Source of the DNA: Oscillospiraceae bacterium
GTDB taxonomy: Bacteria > Bacillota > Clostridia > Oscillospirales > Acutalibacteraceae
Length of the DNA stretch: 41,564 bases
Assembly: GCA_015065685.1 (NCBI GenBank)
Contig: SVPU01000013.1
Location: 1 to 41,564, forward strand
Reading direction: 5' to 3'
Under the pieces are notes generated by a model, which saw only the letters and a list, made by a program, of their open reading frames with translations, was not told where the DNA came from and did no database searches. Shown here piece after piece: positions 27,274 through 36,956 of the stretch. The stretch's first letter is position 1; the number at the start of each line of letters is the position of its first letter. A program made the translations under genes and the position numbers.

Positions 27274-28626
27274 TTAAAAACCAAAATTAGAAAAATTATT
27301 TGGCAAATTCATTCCACGCATCATTTTGCGTTTAGCAGCAGGGGAATTCATCTGCTTGAACATCTTCTTCATCTGTTCATATTGCTTTATAAGACGGTTA
27401 ACATCTTCAACCTTAACACCGGCCCCTGCGGCAATTCGCTTGCGGCGCGATGCATTTAAAATATCCGGCTTAGCACGTTCTTTTTTGGTCATCGAAGTTA
27501 TGATTGCTTCAATTCTTAAAAGCTGTCTATCATCAACATCAACATCCTTTAACTGTCTGTCCATACCGGGAAGCATTGAAAGAACGCTTTTGAGAGAGCC
27601 CATTTTCTTTATTTGGTGGAACTGGTCTAAAAGGTCGTTCATATCAAATTTATTTTCTTGCAAACGGCGTGCGGTTTCTTCGGCTTTCTTTTCATCAACC
27701 TCAGATTCAACCTTTTCAATAAGGCTTAAAACATCGCCCATACCAAGAATACGGGATGCCATTCTGTCAGGGTGGAATTCCTCAAGCTCGTGAAGCTTTT
27801 CGCCCACACCTGCATACATAATCGGCTTGCCCGTTACCGCTTTAACCGATAATGCCGCACCGCCTCGTGTGTCGCCATCGAGCTTAGTGAGAATAACACC
27901 GTCAAGCTCTAAAATATCGTTGAACGATTTTGCAATGTTAACGGCATCCTGACCTACCATAGAGTCAACAACGAGCAAGATGTTGTGAACCTCAATAGCA
28001 TTTGTAATGCGTTTTAGCTCATCCATAAGCTCAGTGTCAATATGCAAACGACCCGCGGTGTCAAGAATGAGGAAATCGTGCCCATAGTCCTTAGCGTAAG
28101 CCACGGCTTTTTTAGCAATGATTTCGGGTTTTTCTGTGCCCATTTCAAAAACGGGCGCATCGACTGCTTTGCCCACAACCTTTAACTGCTCAATAGCAGC
28201 GGGGCGGTAAATATCACAAGCGGCAAGCATTGGTCTGTGACCTTGGCTGCGAAGAAGCTTTGCAAGCTTTGCAGAGTGTGTGGTTTTACCCGAACCCTGA
28301 AGACCGCACATCATAATAACGGTTGGAAGTTTGTTTGAAATGTTAAGCCTTGCTTGTTCGCTGCCCATTAAGGCGGTGAGCTCATCGCGCACAATTTTAA
28401 TAACCATTTGTGCGGCGGTAAGGCTTTCCATAACATTTTCACCAATGCATTTTTCTGCAACCGAATTGGTGAAATCCTTAGCAACTTTATAGTTAACATC
28501 CGCTTCAAGAAGTGCAAGTCGCACCTCACGCATAGCGGTTTTAACATCGCTTTCGCTGAGCTTACCCTTAGAACGCAGGCGTTTAAATACGCCATTTAGT
28601 TTTTCGGATAAATTATCAAACGCCAT
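27274..28626 (-). CDS. ffh: signal recognition particle protein Ffh (SRP54)
   Basis: GTPase that binds signal sequences on nascent membrane proteins together with SRP RNA. The 450-residue protein has an N domain (1-90), a G domain with P-loop GLQGSGKT (108-115, Lys114), DTAGRLHID and TKLDGDTRGG, and a C-terminal M domain with SMLPGMDR and a Met-rich end (KRKMMRGMNLPNN). A GGGAGT site precedes the ATG. It lies directly after ylxM, which is a common arrangement. Confidence 0.97.
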   Translation of the reverse strand: MAFDNLSEKLNGVFKRLRSKGKLSESDVKTAMREVRLALLEADVNYKVAKDFTNSVAEKCIGENVMESLTAAQMVIKIVRDELTALMGSEQARLNISNKLPTVIMMCGLQGSGKTTHSAKLAKLLRSQGHRPMLAACDIYRPAAIEQLKVVGKAVDAPVFEMGTEKPEIIAKKAVAYAKDYGHDFLILDTAGRLHIDTELMDELKRITNAIEVHNILLVVDSMVGQDAVNIAKSFNDILELDGVILTKLDGDTRGGAALSVKAVTGKPIMYAGVGEKLHELEEFHPDRMASRILGMGDVLSLIEKVESEVDEKKAEETARRLQENKFDMNDLLDQFHQIKKMGSLKSVLSMLPGMDRQLKDVDVDDRQLLRIEAIITSMTKKERAKPDILNASRRKRIAAGAGVKVEDVNRLIKQYEQMKKMFKQMNSPAAKRKMMRGMNLPNNFSNFGF

Positions 28627-28638
28627 TTAGTTCACTCC

Positions 28639-28947
28639 CTACAGCTCGTCAATTAAATTAAGAATATCTTTTATTTTTTCAGTGTTGCCGCCCTTGATAT
28701 CAGAGGATAACTCTTTAAGGGTTGCAAATTTCTTGCAATATCCGCACTTTTCTTCAAGCTCATTCAATTGCATAACCGCGCGTTTTATAAGGTCATTAAC
28801 GCCTTGGCGGGTTATACCCTCGTTTTCGGCTATTTCCGAAAGGGATAAATCCTCGTTATAGTAATATTCGGTGAGCATTCGCTGTTTCTCACTTAAAAAG
28901 CCACCGTAAACATCAAGTAATTCAGATACAAACAAATTTTTATTCAT
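28639..28947 (-). CDS. ylxM: YlxM family helix-turn-helix protein (UPF0122)
   Basis: A small (102-residue) SRP-associated protein. It resembles sigma-70 region 4: LLSEKQRMLTEYYYNEDLS, then LSEIAENEGITRQGVNDLIKRA. In streptococci and Bacillus, YlxM is linked to Ffh and SRP RNA. Here it precedes ffh by 12 bases in the same operon and has a consensus promoter upstream. Confidence 0.93.
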   Translation of the reverse strand: MNKNLFVSELLDVYGGFLSEKQRMLTEYYYNEDLSLSEIAENEGITRQGVNDLIKRAVMQLNELEEKCGYCKKFATLKELSSDIKGGNTEKIKDILNLIDEL

Positions 28948-28967
28948 ACGTACCTCACCGAGAAAAG

Positions 28968-28996
28968 ATTATAACACAAAAGAAGACGAGTGTCAA
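28968..28996 (-). promoter_or_regulatory. consensus SigA promoter of ylxM-ffh-rpsP-khpA
   Basis: On the minus strand TTGACA (28991-28996), 17 bases, TATAAT (28968-28973). It starts 21 bases before the ylxM ATG. Confidence 0.85.
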
Positions 28997-29128
28997 GTTT
29001 TTTTCTTTACACCTGTGAAAAAATCTGCTTTTGTCCTCAATATTGTGATTAATATATGGATTTATGCTTTTTTACAACTTGAAATGTGAGAAAAACACGT
29101 AAAACAGGCAAAAAAATCTTGAAAAACA

Positions 29129-29157
29129 TTGACTTTGCTTTTTAAAAGGTGTACAAC
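29129..29157 (+). promoter_or_regulatory. possible promoter of the secreted-protein/peptide locus
   Basis: TTGACT (29129-29134), 17 bases, TACAAC (29152-29157). The -10 is weak. It is the best candidate in the roughly 300-bp gap between divergent ylxM and this gene. Confidence 0.35.
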
Positions 29158-29244
29158 TATTGTGTATCCATATAAGGAAAATTACAATTCAAAAAAACTA
29201 TACTGAGGCTGAATTGTAATGTGTTTAAAAGGAGAGTGTATTAT

Positions 29245-31497
29245 ATGAAAAATTGTAAAAAGCTTCTATCGGTGATGCTTGCAATTGTTATGCTTCTCGC
29301 AGTTGTACCGCTTGGTGCATTCTCTGCAGTGGCTGAAGGTAGCGCAGCACAAATCGGAGAAACAACTTACGAAACTTTCGATGCCGCTTGCAACGCAGCT
29401 GTTTCAGGTGACACAATCAAACTTATTGCTAACGCAGAACTTACTGAATCTGTAACGATTTCCGGTAAGACCGTAACTCTTGACCTTGGCGAATATACAA
29501 TTACGGACAAGAGCACAACAGTTCTTAAGAACAATAGCAATGTTTGGGGATTAATCGAACTTAAGAATGGCGCGAACCTCACTGTTACCGGTAATGGTAC
29601 TATTGAGTGTAATTATACTAATGTTACCGCAACCACTTGGAAGGGTATGGCTTACGCTATCAACGTTGATTCTTCATCCAAGCTTACTGTTGAAAGCGGT
29701 ACTTTTATCAACGGTAACGGCGGCATCCAGACTCAGGGCGAGGTAACCGTTAATGGTGGTACTTTCGTTTCTCACAACGGTGGATGCTGTATCTTCGCAA
29801 GTTATACAGGAAAGGTAACTGTAAACGACGGTACATTTAAGGATTACATTGATGAATCTGATGTTTACACCGGCTCAGGCGCTGTATGGTCCGGCTTTGG
29901 TGCAACTGTTGAAATTAAAGGCGGTACCTATGACTTTGCTGCTGATCCTGAACACGGAAATGTAGTATGGACCTTGTTCCCCGCACAGCATGTAATCGCA
30001 GGTCAGAAAAACTTTGATATAAATATGACCGTAAGTGGTGGTACATTCCATAACTTTAACCCCGCAACCGATGTTGTAGTTGACTACTCTCCATCTGCAG
30101 GCTTCACACTTGGCAGTGTTGTTGAAGAGGGATTTGCTGCCTTTGAGATAGTTGATGGCGTATATTCGGTTAAAGAACTTCCTGTTCTTCCCGATGCTGA
30201 GGTTAAAGATATTAAGTCTGAACTTACCAATAATGAACCCGACCTTACCTTCGCTCTTAATTTCTCAATTAAAGACCTTGATACCTTCACTGAAGAATAT
30301 ATTAATGAGTTGATGGAGGCTTATGGCGACCACTATGTTGACTATGTTTTAACAATTGACGGTCTCTCACAAGAAAGCGTAACATTCAATGCTGATGGCA
30401 GTGCAGACGGTTATCTTGCAGGTCAGTATGATAGTTGGAACGAGAGTTGGTTATCTGTTCCTTTCGATGATGTAACAGTTAATAACGGTGACAGCCTTTA
30501 TATTATGTCTTATGCTGCTCAGCTTATGAATAAGCAAGGCTTACGTTTCACTCTTGCAGAGGTTGCAGAATATGTTGTAAGTTTCAACTGTGGTATTTAT
30601 TTCACTCCCGAATTCCTTGCCGCTAACCCGAATCTTGATGTGAATCTTGAACTCAAGATATTTACCGAAGATGAAAACGGTAACGTTATTCTTACCAAGC
30701 AATTGGCTGAAAACAATTTCGATACAGAAGATGTTGTTGCAATTGTTAGCGGCAGAAATAAACAGAGTGTATATTACAGCACTCTCGGTACTGCACTTCA
30801 GGCAGCAGTAGCGGGCGATACTGTAACACTTATTAGAGATGTTACCGAAGGTTATGTTCTTGTAACTCCCGGTGTAACTCTTGACCTTAACGGCAAGAAA
30901 CTTACAGCGAACTATCTCGTTGGTTTCAATGGCTCTAATGTTGTTGACAATGGCGTTGGTGCTGACGGCGAACTTTCTGTTGAAGGTAGACTTATCATTG
31001 CAAAGGACAACGTTGTTCTTGATAAAGCAAATGCTCAGACACCAATTTATGATGCAGAAAATGGATGCTATGTATTTATAACTGTAGATTTGGGAACAAG
31101 AGAAAATCCCAGATACAAATTCAACATAGCCGACTGGTCTTATAGTTTTTCACCGAAGTTTGGTGTAACTCACGAAATAAGAACCAAGGCTAATCCGCTT
31201 CTTTTAACAGGATATGATAACCATGGCGTTAAGGTTGTTGTTCGTGTTACTTGGATAAAAGAAGGCGAATATGAAGGCCATCAGGATTTTGCTTTCTTAG
31301 ATGCAAAAACCACTTTTGTAGTTGGAAGTTACGGCGATAAATCGCCAACCGGTTATGCAAATATGTTCAAAGTTTATTTTGATGCAGATGATATTACTGA
31401 TTCGGCCTCAGTTGCAATTTCTACTGTGATTATCAGTGACACCGGCGCTGAATTCGAAAGCAGTAAAATTATTGTTGAAAACGGCGAAATAAAATAA
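29245..31497 (+). CDS. large secreted protein with beta-helix-like repeats
   Basis: A 750-residue exported protein, function unknown. It starts at ATG 29245 behind AAAAGGAGAG with a classic signal peptide (KK, a hydrophobic core, then A-F-S-A-V-A-E). Residues about 40-280 contain repeated G-G-T/G-T-F and V-T-V-N-G-G-T-F turns typical of right-handed parallel beta-helix (pectin-lyase-like) surface proteins. The segment Y-E-T-F-D-A-A-C-N-A-A-V-S-G-D-T-I near residue 42 recurs as Y-S-T-L-G-T-A-L-Q-A-A-V-A-G-D-T-V near 520, so there are two copies of the same module. No LPxTG anchor is seen. No terminator separates it from the 33-residue peptide gene 35 bases downstream. Confidence 0.8.
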   Translation: MKNCKKLLSVMLAIVMLLAVVPLGAFSAVAEGSAAQIGETTYETFDAACNAAVSGDTIKLIANAELTESVTISGKTVTLDLGEYTITDKSTTVLKNNSNVWGLIELKNGANLTVTGNGTIECNYTNVTATTWKGMAYAINVDSSSKLTVESGTFINGNGGIQTQGEVTVNGGTFVSHNGGCCIFASYTGKVTVNDGTFKDYIDESDVYTGSGAVWSGFGATVEIKGGTYDFAADPEHGNVVWTLFPAQHVIAGQKNFDINMTVSGGTFHNFNPATDVVVDYSPSAGFTLGSVVEEGFAAFEIVDGVYSVKELPVLPDAEVKDIKSELTNNEPDLTFALNFSIKDLDTFTEEYINELMEAYGDHYVDYVLTIDGLSQESVTFNADGSADGYLAGQYDSWNESWLSVPFDDVTVNNGDSLYIMSYAAQLMNKQGLRFTLAEVAEYVVSFNCGIYFTPEFLAANPNLDVNLELKIFTEDENGNVILTKQLAENNFDTEDVVAIVSGRNKQSVYYSTLGTALQAAVAGDTVTLIRDVTEGYVLVTPGVTLDLNGKKLTANYLVGFNGSNVVDNGVGADGELSVEGRLIIAKDNVVLDKANAQTPIYDAENGCYVFITVDLGTRENPRYKFNIADWSYSFSPKFGVTHEIRTKANPLLLTGYDNHGVKVVVRVTWIKEGEYEGHQDFAFLDAKTTFVVGSYGDKSPTGYANMFKVYFDADDITDSASVAISTVIISDTGAEFESSKIIVENGEIK

Positions 31498-31532
31498 TTT
31501 ATAATTTTTAAAAATTTAAGGAGGTTTTACCA

Positions 31533-31634
31533 TTGAAAACTTATCAAAAACCAGATGCAATTTATATTGAACTTTCAACTTTAGAAAGCGTTACCGCTAC
31601 AACAAGCACACCTGAAAATGAATTTGACGACTAA
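31533..31634 (+). CDS. 33-residue peptide, candidate precursor of a modified peptide
   Basis: A small ORF starting at TTG 31533 with a perfect AAGGAGG 8 bases upstream. It reads M-K-T-Y-Q-K-P-D-A-I-Y-I-E-L in its first half and ends in a Thr/Ser- and acid-rich tail (TATTSTPENEFDD). The Y-x-x-P spacing near the start resembles the motif that RRE/PqqD-like proteins bind in lasso-peptide leaders. It lies between the secreted protein gene and an HPr-kinase-like gene, 5 bases before the latter and two genes before a PqqD-like gene. The translation is well supported. The role as a precursor is inference. Confidence 0.65.
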   Translation: MKTYQKPDAIYIELSTLESVTATTSTPENEFDD

Positions 31635-31639
31635 TACTA

Positions 31640-32365
31640 ATGTTGGATTCAATTCTTTGTAAAATTGCAGAACTTATAACTGAAATTCCTGCAGAGGGTG
31701 GACTCGTCCCCCTCTGCAGTGATTATCTGCTAGAGAAAAAAGAAAATATTGTTCCCGATATTATTATTGATAAGGAACAATTTAATTTTAGTAAATACCC
31801 TGATTTTTCAAACGAAGATGTTTTCTATATGGAATCGGGAAGGCAGTTCAACGCGAAACTTCTTGATTTTAACGGCTTTTATCTGCATTCTTCTGCAGTT
31901 GAATTTGAAGGAAAAGCATTTTTATTTTCGGGGCATTGCGGTGTGGGAAAATCCACCCATACAAAACTCTGGCAATCCACCTTTGGTGAAAACGTGCATG
32001 TGTTTAACGATGATAAACCGGCACTCCGCAAAATTGATGATACTTGGTATGTTTACGGTACACCTTGGAGCGGTAAAAATCATATAAACCTTAATATTAA
32101 AGCACCGCTTTGTGGAATTTGCTTTTTGAAGCAGTCGGAAGAAAACCGTATACGGCGCCTTTCGGCTTTTGAAGCTACGCAAAAAATTCTTTCTCAAACT
32201 TTTCATAAGTTTAAAAGAACAGAGCGTTTGGATGCAATGTTAACCCTTATTGAAGATATAGTTTCTTCCATACCTGTTTTTGAGTTGGAAAACCGCCCCG
32301 AAGAAGAGGCGGTAAGGCTTAGTTACACAACTATGCTTTCGGCGGCAAAGGAGTTAGGATTATGA
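31640..32365 (+). CDS. HPr-kinase-like protein
   Basis: A 241-residue protein with an HprK-type P-loop GHCGVGKST (98-106, Lys104) followed by a VFNDDKPALR block, as in the kinase domain of HPr kinase/phosphorylase. The N-terminal HprK domain is absent. Stand-alone HprK-like proteins of this size occur in peptide-modification clusters (for example the kinase in paeninodin-type lasso clusters, which phosphorylates the precursor). No good ribosome site is visible; the start lies 5 bases after the peptide stop, so translation is probably coupled. It overlaps the next gene by 4 bases (ATGA). Confidence 0.85.
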   Translation: MLDSILCKIAELITEIPAEGGLVPLCSDYLLEKKENIVPDIIIDKEQFNFSKYPDFSNEDVFYMESGRQFNAKLLDFNGFYLHSSAVEFEGKAFLFSGHCGVGKSTHTKLWQSTFGENVHVFNDDKPALRKIDDTWYVYGTPWSGKNHINLNIKAPLCGICFLKQSEENRIRRLSAFEATQKILSQTFHKFKRTERLDAMLTLIEDIVSSIPVFELENRPEEEAVRLSYTTMLSAAKELGL

Positions 32366-32628
32366 AATTAAAAGAAGGCTTTGTGCTTAGAAAAGTTGCG
32401 GGTAATTTTGTTGTTTTTCCCGTGGGAGAAACAACTGTTGACTTTAGCGGTATGCTTGCCCTTAACGAAACGGGCGCATTACTTTGGGAAAAACTTTCTG
32501 AAGGCGCTCAAAAATCTCAACTTTGCGATGCGCTTTGCACAGAATATGAAATATCTTATGACACTGCTATTGCAGATGTGGATGCATTTATTAAAAAACT
32601 TGCAGATGCGGGTTATATCGAATTATAG
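32362..32628 (+). CDS. PqqD-like peptide-binding (RRE) protein
   Basis: An 88-residue protein with the PqqD fold pattern: LREGFVLRKV-like start (here LKEGFVLRKVAGNFVVFPVG), a beta-hairpin, LALNETGALLWEKL, and a C-terminal helix V-D-A-F-I-K-K-L-A-D-A-G-Y-I. These proteins bind the leader of ribosomal peptides and present them to modifying enzymes. It overlaps the HprK-like gene by 4 bases, indicating a joint function. A terminator hairpin follows. Confidence 0.9.
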   Translation: MKLKEGFVLRKVAGNFVVFPVGETTVDFSGMLALNETGALLWEKLSEGAQKSQLCDALCTEYEISYDTAIADVDAFIKKLADAGYIEL

Positions 32629-32640
32629 TAATATAATTAG

Positions 32641-32673
32641 GAGCAAGTTTTCAGCAACTTGCTCTTTCTTTTA
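32641..32673 (+). terminator. terminator or attenuator after the PqqD-like gene
   Basis: GAGCAAGTT (32641-32649) pairs with AACTTGCTC (32656-32664), with a 6-base loop and TTTCTTTT. It divides the locus into peptide/kinase/RRE and lipoprotein/peptidase/transferase parts. Confidence 0.85.
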
Positions 32674-32699
32674 ATATTTCCTTGAAAGGAATTCTTGTT

Positions 32700-33320
32700 A
32701 TGAACATTAAGTTGATTTCGCTTGTTTTAGCGTTTATTCTTGTTATTTTTGTTTGTGTGGGTTGTTCTGCACCAAAGAACAATTCTTCTGATGGCGCAGA
32801 TTCTCTTGTAACCGAAGGTGCCGATGGCTCTTCTAATGAAAACACAAAGGAAGAAAGCGCAGAAAATTCTACGGGCGAAAAAGATTCTTTAAATGAGGAA
32901 GGTAGCGAATCATCAAATCCGGGTTCTTCCGCAGTTACAAATAGCACTAATAAAAACCAGTCATCAAAAGAAAACCAAACTTCTTCAAATAAAACGGAAG
33001 AATCAAATAAACAAAACTCCGGCGAGGCGGATAAAAACAACAGTGCTCAACCGCCCAAGGATAATAACAGCAACGAAAATAATAATAGCAACGGCTCGGA
33101 TACCGAAGATGCTCCAAGCGTGGAAGTTCCTTTGCCCAGCGAAGTAACCTATGAAATTTACCACGATATGACACCAACCGAACAACAGGCATTCTTTAAA
33201 AGTTTCAATGGTTTCGAAAACTTTTTTGATTGGTACAAAAAAGCCAAGGAACAATATCAATATGAGCATCCCGACATAGAAATTGACGGGTCTATTGACC
33301 TTGGGGGACTTATTGGATGA
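32700..33320 (+). CDS. putative lipoprotein with Ser/Asn/Glu-rich linker
   Basis: A 206-residue exported protein of unknown function. The signal peptide ends in a lipobox, with the modified Cys at residue 22 (V-C-V-G-C-S). Residues about 25-145 are a low-complexity Ser/Asn/Lys/Glu linker, probably spanning the cell wall. The C-terminal 60 residues (S-E-V-T-Y-E-I-Y-H-D-M-T-P-T-E-Q-Q and then F-E-N-F-F-D-W-Y-K-K-A-K) form a small conserved-looking domain. AAAGGA precedes ATG 32700. Its end overlaps the peptidase-like gene by 4 bases (ATGA), tying it to that gene. Confidence 0.8.
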   Translation: MNIKLISLVLAFILVIFVCVGCSAPKNNSSDGADSLVTEGADGSSNENTKEESAENSTGEKDSLNEEGSESSNPGSSAVTNSTNKNQSSKENQTSSNKTEESNKQNSGEADKNNSAQPPKDNNSNENNNSNGSDTEDAPSVEVPLPSEVTYEIYHDMTPTEQQAFFKSFNGFENFFDWYKKAKEQYQYEHPDIEIDGSIDLGGLIG

Positions 33321-33787
33321 GCAATGAAAAAATCCAACTGAATGTGCCTTCTGCATCGCTTGTTCCGCTTATAGAAGAGCAGTTATCTGAAGGCAAAACA
33401 GTTAAGTTTGCTCCAAAGGGGACCAGTATGCTTCCGCTACTTCGCGAAGGGCGTGACACCGTAACCCTTTGCGCCATTAATAGACCGCTTGAAAAGTATG
33501 ATATTGGGTTTTATCGCCGCCAAAACGGTCAATATGTTTTGCACAGAATAGTTGATATTAAAGACACTGTTACCTGTTGCGGAGATGGTCAGTTTTGGCT
33601 TGAAAAAGGACTGTTACCATCTCAATTTATAGGTGTGGTTTGTGCTTTCTCGCGGGATAATAAAACTTATAGCGTCACATCTTGGAGTTATAAATTTTAC
33701 TGTCGGATTATACATTTTAGCCGCCCTTTGAGGCACTTTATTTCAAGGGCAACGGCAAAATTGAAGAAAATTTTAAAAGGTGGGTGA
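33317..33787 (+). CDS. S24/S26 family signal-peptidase-like protein
   Basis: A 156-residue protein with the serine motif KGTSMLPLLREGRD (Ser37) and YVLHRIVDI (His76). The Lys of bacterial signal peptidase I is replaced by His, as in the S26B group (SipW/Sec11 type), which uses a Ser-His pair. It has no clear N-terminal membrane segment; a moderately hydrophobic, basic C-terminus (about 125-156) could contact the membrane. It could cleave a peptide leader or an exported substrate of this locus. Overlaps with both neighbours suggest a coupled operon. It is distinct from lepB at 7547. Confidence 0.82.
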   Translation: MSNEKIQLNVPSASLVPLIEEQLSEGKTVKFAPKGTSMLPLLREGRDTVTLCAINRPLEKYDIGFYRRQNGQYVLHRIVDIKDTVTCCGDGQFWLEKGLLPSQFIGVVCAFSRDNKTYSVTSWSYKFYCRIIHFSRPLRHFISRATAKLKKILKGG

Positions 33788-33791
33788 TATC

Positions 33792-35009
33792 TTGCAGAAT
33801 GAAGGTCTTCTTTCGGTTACCAAAGAGCTTATATATCTGATATCCTGTGCTCTGAATGATACAACACCAAACGCAGATATTATTCGCAATTTCGACCTCT
33901 CTCAAGTGTACAAATTAGCAGAAAAACATTCACTGGAAGCAATATCTTATAGCGCTTTAGAAAAATATTTAAACGCTTTGACCCACGATAATTCAGACAT
34001 TTCCGATGAAATAAAAACCGAATGGTCCTCTAAGCGCGAAGAAACCGTTAAAAAAAGTGTTATGTTCGGTTTTGAACGCGAAAAGATTTTTGCCTTTTTT
34101 GAAAAGGAAGGTATTTGGTATCTGCCAATGAAGGGACTGCATCTTTGTGGCCTTTATCCGGTTAATGGGTGGCGTAATTTCGTTGATAACGATATCTTAT
34201 TCGATTCTTCTAAGCGCGATCTTGTACACGATTTTATGTTAAAAAACGGATACACTGCGGAATCTTACGGTATTTACAACCATGATATTTATTTAAAACG
34301 TCCTTTTTATAATTTTGAAATGCATGTTTCTCTTTGCAAAGAAGATAATAAATTGGGGAAAATGGGTAAACTCAGTATCTACTATAGCGATTTTTTCAAA
34401 AAACTTATACGAAATTCTGAAGACTCGTATGAGTATCATATGAGCAATGAAGATTTTTATATCTATAGTATTGTACATTCATATATGCACCATATAACAA
34501 ATGGCACAGGCTTGCGCACATTTGTTGATATTTTTGTTATTCTAAAAGCACTCGGTCAACGGTTGAATCGTGATTATATTGACGGGGAACTCGAAAAAAT
34601 GGGAATTCTTGAGTTTGAAGAAAGAGTTCGAAAAATCTCACAAAAACTTTTTTCCATAGACATGCAGTTCTCTTTAAGTCCCGCAGAGGAAGAATTCTTA
34701 CTTTTTTATTCGAGTTCAGGCACATATGGCAACTTGAAAAATAGAATTACTAATAAACTCTTGCGAATTTCTAACAATGAAGAAAACGAAAAAATTTCTG
34801 CCAAAACAAAAACAAAGTATTGTTTTAGCAGAATATTTCCTTCAATGGATTTTTATAAAAAGCACTATCCTAGTGTTTACAAATGTAAGATACTTGTCCC
34901 TTTTGTTATTCCTTATCGATTAGTAAAAGGAATATTCATAACTAAAACCGCTTTGGGAGAACTCAAGCATCTTTCTAAAATAAAAAATATAAATAAAAGC
35001 GGCGATTAG
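33792..35009 (+). CDS. nucleotidyltransferase family protein (NTP_transf_5-like)
   Basis: A 405-residue protein resembling uncharacterised nucleotidyltransferases. The core W-Y-L-P-M-K-G-L-H-L and then R-N-F-V-D-N-D-I-L-F-D gives a K-G...D-x-D-I-L type active site near residues 115-140. Similar proteins are found in lasso-peptide and cell-surface clusters. I choose TTG 33792 because AGGTGG lies 8 bases upstream; GTG 33780 is in frame but has no site. It starts just after the peptidase-like gene stop and ends before a terminator. The donor nucleotide and acceptor are unknown. Confidence 0.78.
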   Translation: MQNEGLLSVTKELIYLISCALNDTTPNADIIRNFDLSQVYKLAEKHSLEAISYSALEKYLNALTHDNSDISDEIKTEWSSKREETVKKSVMFGFEREKIFAFFEKEGIWYLPMKGLHLCGLYPVNGWRNFVDNDILFDSSKRDLVHDFMLKNGYTAESYGIYNHDIYLKRPFYNFEMHVSLCKEDNKLGKMGKLSIYYSDFFKKLIRNSEDSYEYHMSNEDFYIYSIVHSYMHHITNGTGLRTFVDIFVILKALGQRLNRDYIDGELEKMGILEFEERVRKISQKLFSIDMQFSLSPAEEEFLLFYSSSGTYGNLKNRITNKLLRISNNEENEKISAKTKTKYCFSRIFPSMDFYKKHYPSVYKCKILVPFVIPYRLVKGIFITKTALGELKHLSKIKNINKSGD

Positions 35010-35021
35010 TCCACCGATTAG

Positions 35022-35051
35022 AAAAGACGGGAAAATTTCCTGTCTTTTTTA
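35022..35051 (+). terminator. terminator of the 32.7-35.0 kb operon
   Basis: AAAAGACGGG pairs with TCCTGTCTTTT (one wobble) around an AAAATT loop, followed by T. Confidence 0.8.
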
Positions 35052-35071
35052 TTGCATTTGTTTCGGCTTTG

Positions 35072-35100
35072 TTGACAAGGGGATAAATAGGGTTTATAAT
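35072..35100 (+). promoter_or_regulatory. consensus SigA promoter of typA
   Basis: TTGACA (35072-35077), 17 bases, TATAAT (35095-35100). Confidence 0.88.
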
Positions 35101-35132
35101 ATTTTTTATGTGATAAATAAGGATGTATTTTA

Positions 35133-36956
35133 ATGACTGAAATTAAAAATTTAAGAAATGTTGCAATTATTGCTCACGTTGACCATGGTAAAACCACTCT
35201 GGTTGACCAATTGCTTAAACAAAGCGGAACTTTCCGTGCCAATGAAAATGTTGATGATAGAGTTATGGACTCTAACGACCTTGAAAGAGAAAGAGGAATA
35301 ACCATTCTTTCAAAAAACACAAGCGTTATGTATAACGGGGTTAAAATCAATATTGTTGATACTCCCGGCCACGCTGATTTTGGCGGTGAGGTTGAGAGAA
35401 TTCTTCAAATGGTTGATGGCGTTTTGTTGCTTGTTGATGCATTTGAGGGTTGTATGCCACAGACTCGTTTTGTGCTCAAAAAGGCTTTGGCACTCGGAAA
35501 AAAAGCGGTTGTTGTGGTTAATAAAATTGATAGACCAATGGCGCGACCACACGAGGTTGTGGATGAGGTTCTTGACCTGTTTATCGAACTCGGTGCTGAT
35601 GATGAGCAGATTGAGTTTCCCGTTATTTTCGCAAGCGGAAGAGATGGATATGCCTCATATTCACCCGATATTAAGGGAGAGGATATGAAGCCGCTTTTTG
35701 ATGCGATTGTTAACGAAATTGAAGCGCCCAAGGGCGAGACCGAGGGCCCTTTGCAGATTCTATTTACGAATATTGAATATGATGATTATCTTGGAAGAAT
35801 CGGCGTTGGCCGTGTGATTCGCGGTAGCGTTAAGGTGGGACAAACCGTGGCACTTTGCCATAAGGATGGCAGCGCAACAAATGTGAAAATTGCAAAGCTT
35901 TTTATGCACCGCGGCTTAAAGCGTGTTGAAGAAGAAACCGCAACTGTCGGAGATATAATTCAAGTTTCAGGCATAGCTGAGCTTGAAATAGGTGAGACCG
36001 CGTGCGATTTAACCTGTGTTGAGCCGTTACCTTTTGTTAAAATTGATGAGCCCACACTCGCAATGAATTTTATGGTTAACAACTCGCCGTTTGCAGGAAA
36101 GGACGGAAAGTTTGTAACCTCACGTAATCTTCGCGACCGACTTTTTAAAGAGGTTATGACTAATGTGAGCCTCAGGGTTGAAGAAACCGATTCTGCCGAT
36201 ACCTTCAAGGTTTCGGGAAGAGGAGAGTTGCACCTTTCAATTCTTATTGAAACAATGCGCCGTCAGGGCTATGAATTTCAGGTTTCACCGCCTGAGGTTA
36301 TTTATAAAAGAGATAAAGATGGCGGTCTTTTAGAGCCAATTGAGCTACTTATGATTGAGGTGCCCGATGAATATGTTGGCGCTGTTATGGAAAGACTCGG
36401 CACCAGAAAGGCTGAAATTAAGAATATGGGCAGCCGTGAGGGTGGTACTTCGCACCTTGAATTTTTAATTCCCGCGCGCGGACTTCTCGGCTACCGTTCA
36501 CAATTCTTAACCGATACTAACGGCAACGGTATAATGAACCATGTGTTTGATAGCTATCAAGCCTATAAGGGCGATATTGAACAGCGTTCAACAGGTTCAA
36601 TTATCGCGCACGAGCAGGGTGAAGCCACCGGTTACGGACTTTTTAACACCCAAAGCCGCGGAAGACTCTTTATAGGTCCAGGTGTTCCTGTTTATGAGGG
36701 AATGATTGTGGGCGAAAACCCGAAAAATGATGATATTGTTTGCAATGTGTGCAAGAAAAAGCAGATGACCAACACAAGAGCCTCGGGCTCGGATGATGCT
36801 TTGCGCCTTGTTCCGCCATCAAAATTAAGCCTTGAACAGTCACTTGAGTTCATCAAAAACGATGAACTTGTTGAAATCACACCTAACAATATAAGACTTA
36901 GAAAAAGAATTTTAAATAAAGAAGAAAGAATGAAAGCAGAGTCGAGAAAGAAATAA
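35133..36956 (+). CDS. typA: translational GTPase TypA/BipA
   Basis: Ribosome-associated GTPase of the EF-G family, involved in ribosome assembly and stress adaptation. The 607-residue protein has the P-loop [10 protein letters not shown] near residue 14, [25 protein letters not shown] and the TypA-specific C-terminal domain. AAGGA precedes the ATG, with a consensus promoter just upstream. Its stop shares a base with the next gene start (TAATG). All motifs are intact. Confidence 0.97.

Follow-up and report, generated by a model that had tools for sequence, protein, structure and literature searches.

A probable LPP-type RiPP cassette of a Clostridia lineage, with precursor genes behind those of large secreted proteins

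What is made from a 33-residue peptide whose gene directly precedes those of an HprK-like kinase and a PqqD-like protein? The question arises from a 41,564-nt stretch of DNA of an Oscillospiraceae bacterium (the window), in which the three genes form one coupled plus-strand unit (31533–32628), with a gap of 5 bases between the peptide and kinase genes and an overlap of 4 bases between the genes of the kinase and the RiPP recognition element (RRE). An initial annotation had proposed this unit, and its coordinates proved exact. It had also taken the trio for the whole unit and had seen no described family for it, and here we disagree: a gene for a secreted protein ends 35 bp upstream, genes for a SipW-like protease and an NTP_transf_5 protein follow downstream, and the enzyme set matches that of the Linear Polyphosphorylated Peptides (LPP), described by Popov et al. 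in May 2026 from the lpp cluster of Paenibacillus alginolyticus (PMC13381572). The locus is a real cassette and a clear variant of the 2026 LPP family, with no undescribed class of RiPP chemistry. In our judgement it is most probably an LPP-type RiPP cassette, belonging to a Clostridia lineage, whose precursor has a large secreted protein as its partner and whose RRE, kinase, protease and nucleotidyltransferase (B, K, S and N) mature the peptide.

Enzymes of the locus and related systems

According to PMC13381572, an LPP cluster has as its core a precursor, an HprK-like kinase, an RRE, an SpI leader peptidase, an NTP transferase and an MsbA-like exporter; the kinase adds several phosphates to core Ser3, the peptidase and the RRE remove the leader, deletion of lppN changed nothing detectably, and the biological role is stated as unknown. 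The window contains the whole enzyme set K, B, S and N (Table 1) and shares with LPP the HprK-like kinase, the discrete RRE, the SpI/SipW-type leader peptidase, the NTP transferase, a YxxP leader and the lack of a cyclase. It differs in that no exporter was found in the window at E ≤ 1e-20 with a profile of the exporter of locus L098 (Acetivibrio alkalicellulosi), an ABC transporter, and in that precursors here are dispersed and mostly paired with exoproteins. Among 136 related kinase loci an MsbA-like exporter occurs within 5 kb in 42, and in 14 it is joined by K, B, S and N, all within 5 kb. For 30 of the kinases, neither B, S and N nor an exporter is encoded on the same strand within 5 kb, which means that part of the family functions in other contexts.

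Table 1. Features of the locus in their order along the plus strand, from the exoprotein to the second hairpin
Feature	Coordinates	Strand	Basis or detail
Exoprotein, 758 aa, secreted	29221..31497	+	signal peptide by eye; start GTG 29221 or ATG 29245
Precursor-like peptide, 33 aa	31533..31634	+	TTG start, YxxP leader (Y4–P7), Thr/Ser and acidic tail
HprK-like kinase K (LppK-like)	31640..32365	+	predicted fold, PDB matches, invariant motifs
PqqD-like RiPP recognition element B (LppB/B1-like)	32362..32628	+	PF05402 E 1e-16; PDB profile matches
Intrinsic-terminator-like hairpin after RRE gene	32639..32666	+	
Ser/Thr/acidic-rich lipoprotein, 206 aa	32700..33320	+	
S24/S26-fold serine peptidase S (LppS-like), archaeal/SipW-type signal peptidase relative	33317..33787	+	
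NTP_transf_5 nucleotidyltransferase N (LppN-like)	33780..35009	+	PF14907 E 3.8e-35
Intrinsic-terminator-like hairpin at unit end	35019..35051	+	

The first hairpin parts S and N from the peptide, K and B, which counts against the preferred LPP-type reading; terminator-like sites in the region number 9, with 5.1 expected from shuffles. No Rfam element was found in 28500–35300 at gathering scores. Beyond the second hairpin a perfect TTGACA-17-TATAAT promoter-like site (35072–35100) stands before a gene that by eye encodes a translational-GTPase-like protein.

No Pfam match at E ≤ 0.001 was obtained for any of 40 members of the kinase family. Their alignment shows H83, S85, G103–H107 (GKSTH, P-loop) and N123–P127 (NDDKP) to be invariant, and the predicted model of K (pLDDT 95.4) matches HPr kinase/phosphorylase and PEP carboxykinase in a PDB fold search. 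Fold and motifs bear out the HprK type proposed in the initial annotation, as the Pfam match in Table 1 does for the RRE/PqqD protein. The best NCBIfam match of the kinase is to the SynChlorMet cassette, which also pairs a kinase with a PqqD protein (ScmC, HprK-like, and ScmD, PqqD-like, by their NCBIfam names), but it lies below cut-off: the ScmC/ScmD equivalogs are not reached by the kinase (22.1 bits versus 125) or by the PqqD-like protein (18.4 versus 100). The SynChlorMet cassette includes radical SAM genes, whereas by eye there is none among the ORFs of the unit, as had been noted initially for radical SAM and cyclase genes alike.

The HprK-like kinase, the RRE and the NTP_transf_5 protein are known lasso accessories, and the locus could be read as a degenerate or atypical lasso-peptide cluster. 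Paeninodin-like phosphorylated lasso peptides share with it the kinase, the RRE, the nucleotidyltransferase and a [Y/W]xxP leader (per PMC13381572), and among profiles made from PDB entries the window RRE matches TbiB1 (44 bits), PbaB1 (38) and TfuB1 (34) at least as well as LppB (33.4). However, the lasso B2 cysteine protease (PF13471) has no match at E ≤ 0.01 in the organism's own genome (91% complete), no cyclase-like (Asn-synthetase-like) ORF is seen among those of the unit, and an SpI-type protease is present instead. The missing B2 match and cyclase-like ORF disfavour a lasso cluster, which we regard as highly improbable.

The assignment of S comes largely from its family. At E ≤ 0.001, a level not necessarily over the model cut-offs, TIGR02228 (archaeal-type signal peptidase I) has matches in 50 of 60 aligned members, SipW in 20 of 60 and PF00717 (Peptidase_S24) in 17; the window protein alone is below every cut-off (E 0.021). 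S37, H76 and D90 are invariant in the family, and the predicted model (pLDDT 91.7) has the LexA/signal-peptidase fold, its best PDB match being at E 0.002 with none under 0.001. As for N, a second NTP_transf_5 gene (C12 18295–19008, L235) lies away from both kinase loci of the genome and adjoins a gene that by eye is polysaccharide-biosynthesis epimerase/dehydratase-like. Two further PqqD-family matches in the genome (C10 101878–102048 and C7 75528–75695) adjoin neither kinase locus.

The kinase has matches at E ≤ 1e-10 in 99 of 198 genomes (the own genome and 197 relatives), and two loci were found in the own 1.5-Mb genome, one in the window and one on C7. Kinase–RRE–protease loci are also seen on contigs labelled as planctomycete or Thermoguttaceae MAGs (L100, L114, L128).

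The window peptide and its leader

The peptide (YQKPDAIYIELSTLESVTATTS) has its start codon 8 nt 3′ of AAGGAGG, a good Shine-Dalgarno sequence, and its residue at P+16 is Thr23. Its precursor-like character was claimed in the initial annotation, and we agree. The motif is confined to this position: among RBS-preceded start sites upstream of kinases, 22 of 70 show [YF]xxP, and none of the 256 control sites does, a count made with the motif known beforehand, with the window among the 22 and with L125 repeating L057. The nearest relative by kinase identity (L085, 55%) says nothing on this point, its sequence beginning 19 bases before the kinase match. In the second nearest (L086, 51%) a YTKP peptide stands after a 1604-aa ORF and before the kinase; the profile missed this peptide, which was spotted by eye.

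The main weakness is that the window peptide was not recovered by a leave-one-out profile of 67 peptides from which it had been excluded: it scores 1.5 bits with Met as first residue, and the raw ORF comes 1,304th among the 13,219 ORFs scored, not above shuffled decoys. No Pfam or NCBIfam model reaches its cut-off for it either. It might be that the 33-codon ORF is not a substrate and that K, B and S act on another protein, for instance the exoprotein or the lipoprotein encoded between B and S. Lipobox-bearing Ser-rich ORFs are found near the kinase in four other loci (L038, L060, L147, L153); in L060 and L153 their tails are alike, YYDDWE..DNVI.FSELLG. Against another substrate speak the good Shine-Dalgarno site, the YxxP leader with a matching Asp in the RRE, the motif control and the YTKP peptide at the equivalent place in L086, and we find this explanation quite unlikely. 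What speaks for the window peptide as a precursor is its Shine-Dalgarno site, its location after the exoprotein and before the kinase, the YxxP motif, the Asp of the RRE and the motif control.

For the leader, the LppB structure offers a direct comparison: there Asp70 anchors the Tyr of the leader, with Asn33 as a support for the turn at its Pro (PMC13381572). The window RRE keeps the equivalents of N33, D70 (here D72) and F74, a further likeness to LPP. A difference from that system is that in many loci the leader Tyr is replaced along with loss of the RRE Asp. A first pass over 25 loci, with L125 and L154 omitted, gave 16 with Tyr and Asp, 8 with neither (the leaders have Phe or Leu and the RREs are non-acidic) and 1 with Tyr and Gly (L092). 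With automatic regex labels on more loci the table is 18/1/2/15 (p 4.9e-7). After hand checking, in which misparsed peptides were corrected and four below-threshold peptides added so that 41 of the 101 RREs found are labelled, there are 24 Tyr/acidic, 1 Tyr/non-acidic, 0 non-Tyr/acidic and 16 non-Tyr/non-acidic loci (p 1.6e-10), L092 being the exception. On an RRE tree built without the covarying column the leader changes 5 times, the RRE residue 6 times and the joint state 6 times, versus a mean of 12.8 changes (minimum 7) with shuffled leader labels. The own genome holds both states, as the window RRE has Asp with a Tyr peptide and the RRE of the second locus (C7) has Ala with Phe peptides. 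Thus the pairing of RRE and leader, predicted from sequences, is supported by covariation and by the published LppB structure.

There may be a second covariation. In L127, L129 and L141 the RRE has Thr in the Asn33 column, and the adjoining short ORFs lack YxxP; RREs with Ser in this column also occur, and some of them keep YxxP (L220). We take the Thr cases to be only suggestive.

Dispersed precursors and large secreted proteins

A profile made from 12 peptides, three of them seeds from the own genome, finds nine family peptides on seven contigs of that genome, six of the nine being non-seeds. Profile matches to the peptide family at E < 0.05 number 43, with the best shuffled decoy at E 0.32, and 55 of the 198 genomes have a match at E ≤ 0.01. 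When eight and a further six family peptides were compared with NCBIfam and Pfam, no model was over cut-off (best E 0.13). The initial annotation suggested looking for the trio in other genomes: among the 197 relatives peptide and kinase co-occur in 51, 47 have the kinase without a peptide, 3 the peptide only and 96 neither (p 3.6e-16, merely indicative as the genomes are related and the value ignores this). It had also named kinase and PqqD genes kept without any peptide ORF as evidence against itself, and such loci do occur, a profile-detected peptide lying within 4.6 kb of only 36 of 101 RREs; four more peptides were seen by eye, and peptides also occur away from the kinase.

The family differs from LPP in its motif. 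PMC13381572 gives YxxPxVLxHQxIxFETxxS / Px9Fx[T/A] for LPP precursors; Px9Fx[T/A] is in 0 of 79 distinct peptides here, the window one included, and Px6F is in 63. Tyr-leader peptides tend to Y-x-x-P-E-[LI]-E-[IV]-x-x-F-x-x-x-D-[VI]-[IL]-T-x-S. At P+16, 85% of the 41 distinct Tyr peptides carry Ser or Thr, compared with 38% of 26 others, and in most Tyr-leader relatives the residue is Ser. By eye, none of the eight F-class peptides of the own genome has Ser/Thr from P+14 to P+16; the phospho-site is therefore not transferable to them and, if any, lies elsewhere. Several of them end in DST[IV][FI].

Eight of the nine peptides of the own genome lie 30–38 bp behind a large gene, C22 being the exception. 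A signal peptide is recognised by eye in six of these eight exoproteins; for C24 the start of the gene is outside the contig, and C7b has no signal at the first start codon, yet is 90–95% identical to C7a. Over all genomes sampled an ORF of at least 400 aa ends no more than 60 bp upstream of 46 of 80 peptides, versus 162 of 1,588 background genes, and with a signal-like start, cut genes being counted as misses, the figures are 26 of 80 and 70 of 1,588. With a looser limit (same strand, at least 300 aa, at most 80 bp) 48 of the 80 peptides, from the own and other genomes, have such an ORF: 26 of these ORFs are complete and begin with a signal-like segment (regex), 19 are truncated where the analysed sequence ends, and 3 are without such a start. 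As to the other 32 peptides, 5 have an ORF of 120–300 aa, 5 follow another peptide in a tandem, 3 adjoin a contig edge and for 19 there is none.

The seven exoproteins before F-class peptides of the own genome have a common C-terminal domain (39–95% identity over 84–260 residues), while for 14 of the 21 pairs among them alignment outside it extends over 65 residues at most; those of C7a, C7b, C23 and C24 are related outside the domain as well (29–90% over 253–474 residues). The window exoprotein is without this domain, and no Pfam model reaches its cut-off there; a weak alignment (23% identity, E 0.009) links the last ~250 residues of the protein to the 1604-aa ORF of L086. Four exoproteins of G068 are 90–98% identical in their C-terminal 130 residues and 25–40% in other parts, and near-identical peptides follow directly after them. 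The two long exoproteins compared in G195 resemble each other beyond the domain as well (44% over 664 residues). Seven of the 11 full-length domain matches in the own genome are followed by a peptide, three are not (C10 twice, C2), and for C12 the ORF runs on past the analysed sequence; in G068, 7 of 8 domain copies with a visible gene end have a peptide behind them.

Two more general links were rejected. Exoprotein tails do not resemble peptide cores as a rule (in 55 pairs the own tail is no better than mismatched ones, mean percentile 0.45), and a C-terminal 'ARAY' domain, present in 12 of the 62 ORFs (at least 300 aa long) that precede a peptide versus 9 of 828 others, is enriched but not a general partner. 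The sole resembling case of the 55 is L086 (893–5707), where the C-terminus of the 1604-aa ORF, GGWETETENPEGWE, is similar to that of the following peptide, GGWETDVSLPEGWM. An S-layer-homology protein is encoded between peptide and kinase in L098 (8538–9683, Pfam) and L089 (8558–9829, by eye).

The peptide might instead be an independent secreted LPP-like product, a signal or a bacteriocin, with exoprotein adjacency reflecting co-regulation or hitch-hiking in surface-protein operons. The 19 of 80 peptides without an adjacent exoprotein fit this, and PMC13381572 reports polysaccharide loci next to LPP and paeninodin clusters. It is harder to reconcile with G068, where near-identical C-termini precede near-identical peptides despite divergence elsewhere, and with the one C-terminal domain type that precedes seven F-class peptides and is absent from the window exoprotein. 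An independent product seems rather unlikely to us. The exoprotein-less peptides and the three domain copies without a peptide nevertheless count against the exoprotein-paired LPP-type cassette that we prefer.

Proposed maturation and its implications

Under the preferred reading, the RRE would bind the Tyr-x-x-Pro leader of the 33-aa peptide and would most likely present it to the kinase and the protease. K would phosphorylate a Ser/Thr just past the leader (column P+16; Thr23 in the window peptide), S, aided by B, would remove the leader, and N may further modify the phosphate. For phosphorylation, leader cleavage and the role of N we rely on PMC13381572. The initial annotation suggested a phosphorylated (or nucleotidylated) small peptide as a possible outcome; a phosphorylated linear peptide is the likely product in our reading too. 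The Thr at P+16 counts against phosphorylation of the window peptide, given that PMC13381572 reports Ser3Thr to abolish phosphorylation by LppK.

The mature peptide, as we infer from the pairing of genes, would act with the exoprotein encoded upstream, at or on the cell surface. The precursors of the own genome, at least nine, would share two enzyme loci acting in trans, of which the one in the window has an RRE that fits a Tyr leader and the other an RRE that fits Phe leaders. Peptide–kinase co-occurrence, exoprotein linkage and the folds are established by computation. The main text of PMC13381572 does not mention clostridia, extracellular, surface, secreted or orphan, and our literature search found no paper on exoprotein-paired peptides of this kind.

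More tentatively, the system may be a dispersed one, in which each surface protein has a C-terminal recognition domain and a peptide of its own, a few sets of kinase, RRE and protease work in trans, and the product docks on or anchors the domain. We see this as possible, with the odds against it. If true, it would be a logic of surface-protein sorting or assembly with a separate modified peptide as the tag.

That the leader Tyr and the RRE Asp change together supplies evidence from nature for the contact seen in the crystal structure of LppB, and could help to match orphan precursors with their enzymes. LPP-like precursors directly behind surface-protein genes, several per genome, in a branch of gut Clostridia give a testable hint of function, namely that the peptide may be a partner of a cell-surface protein.
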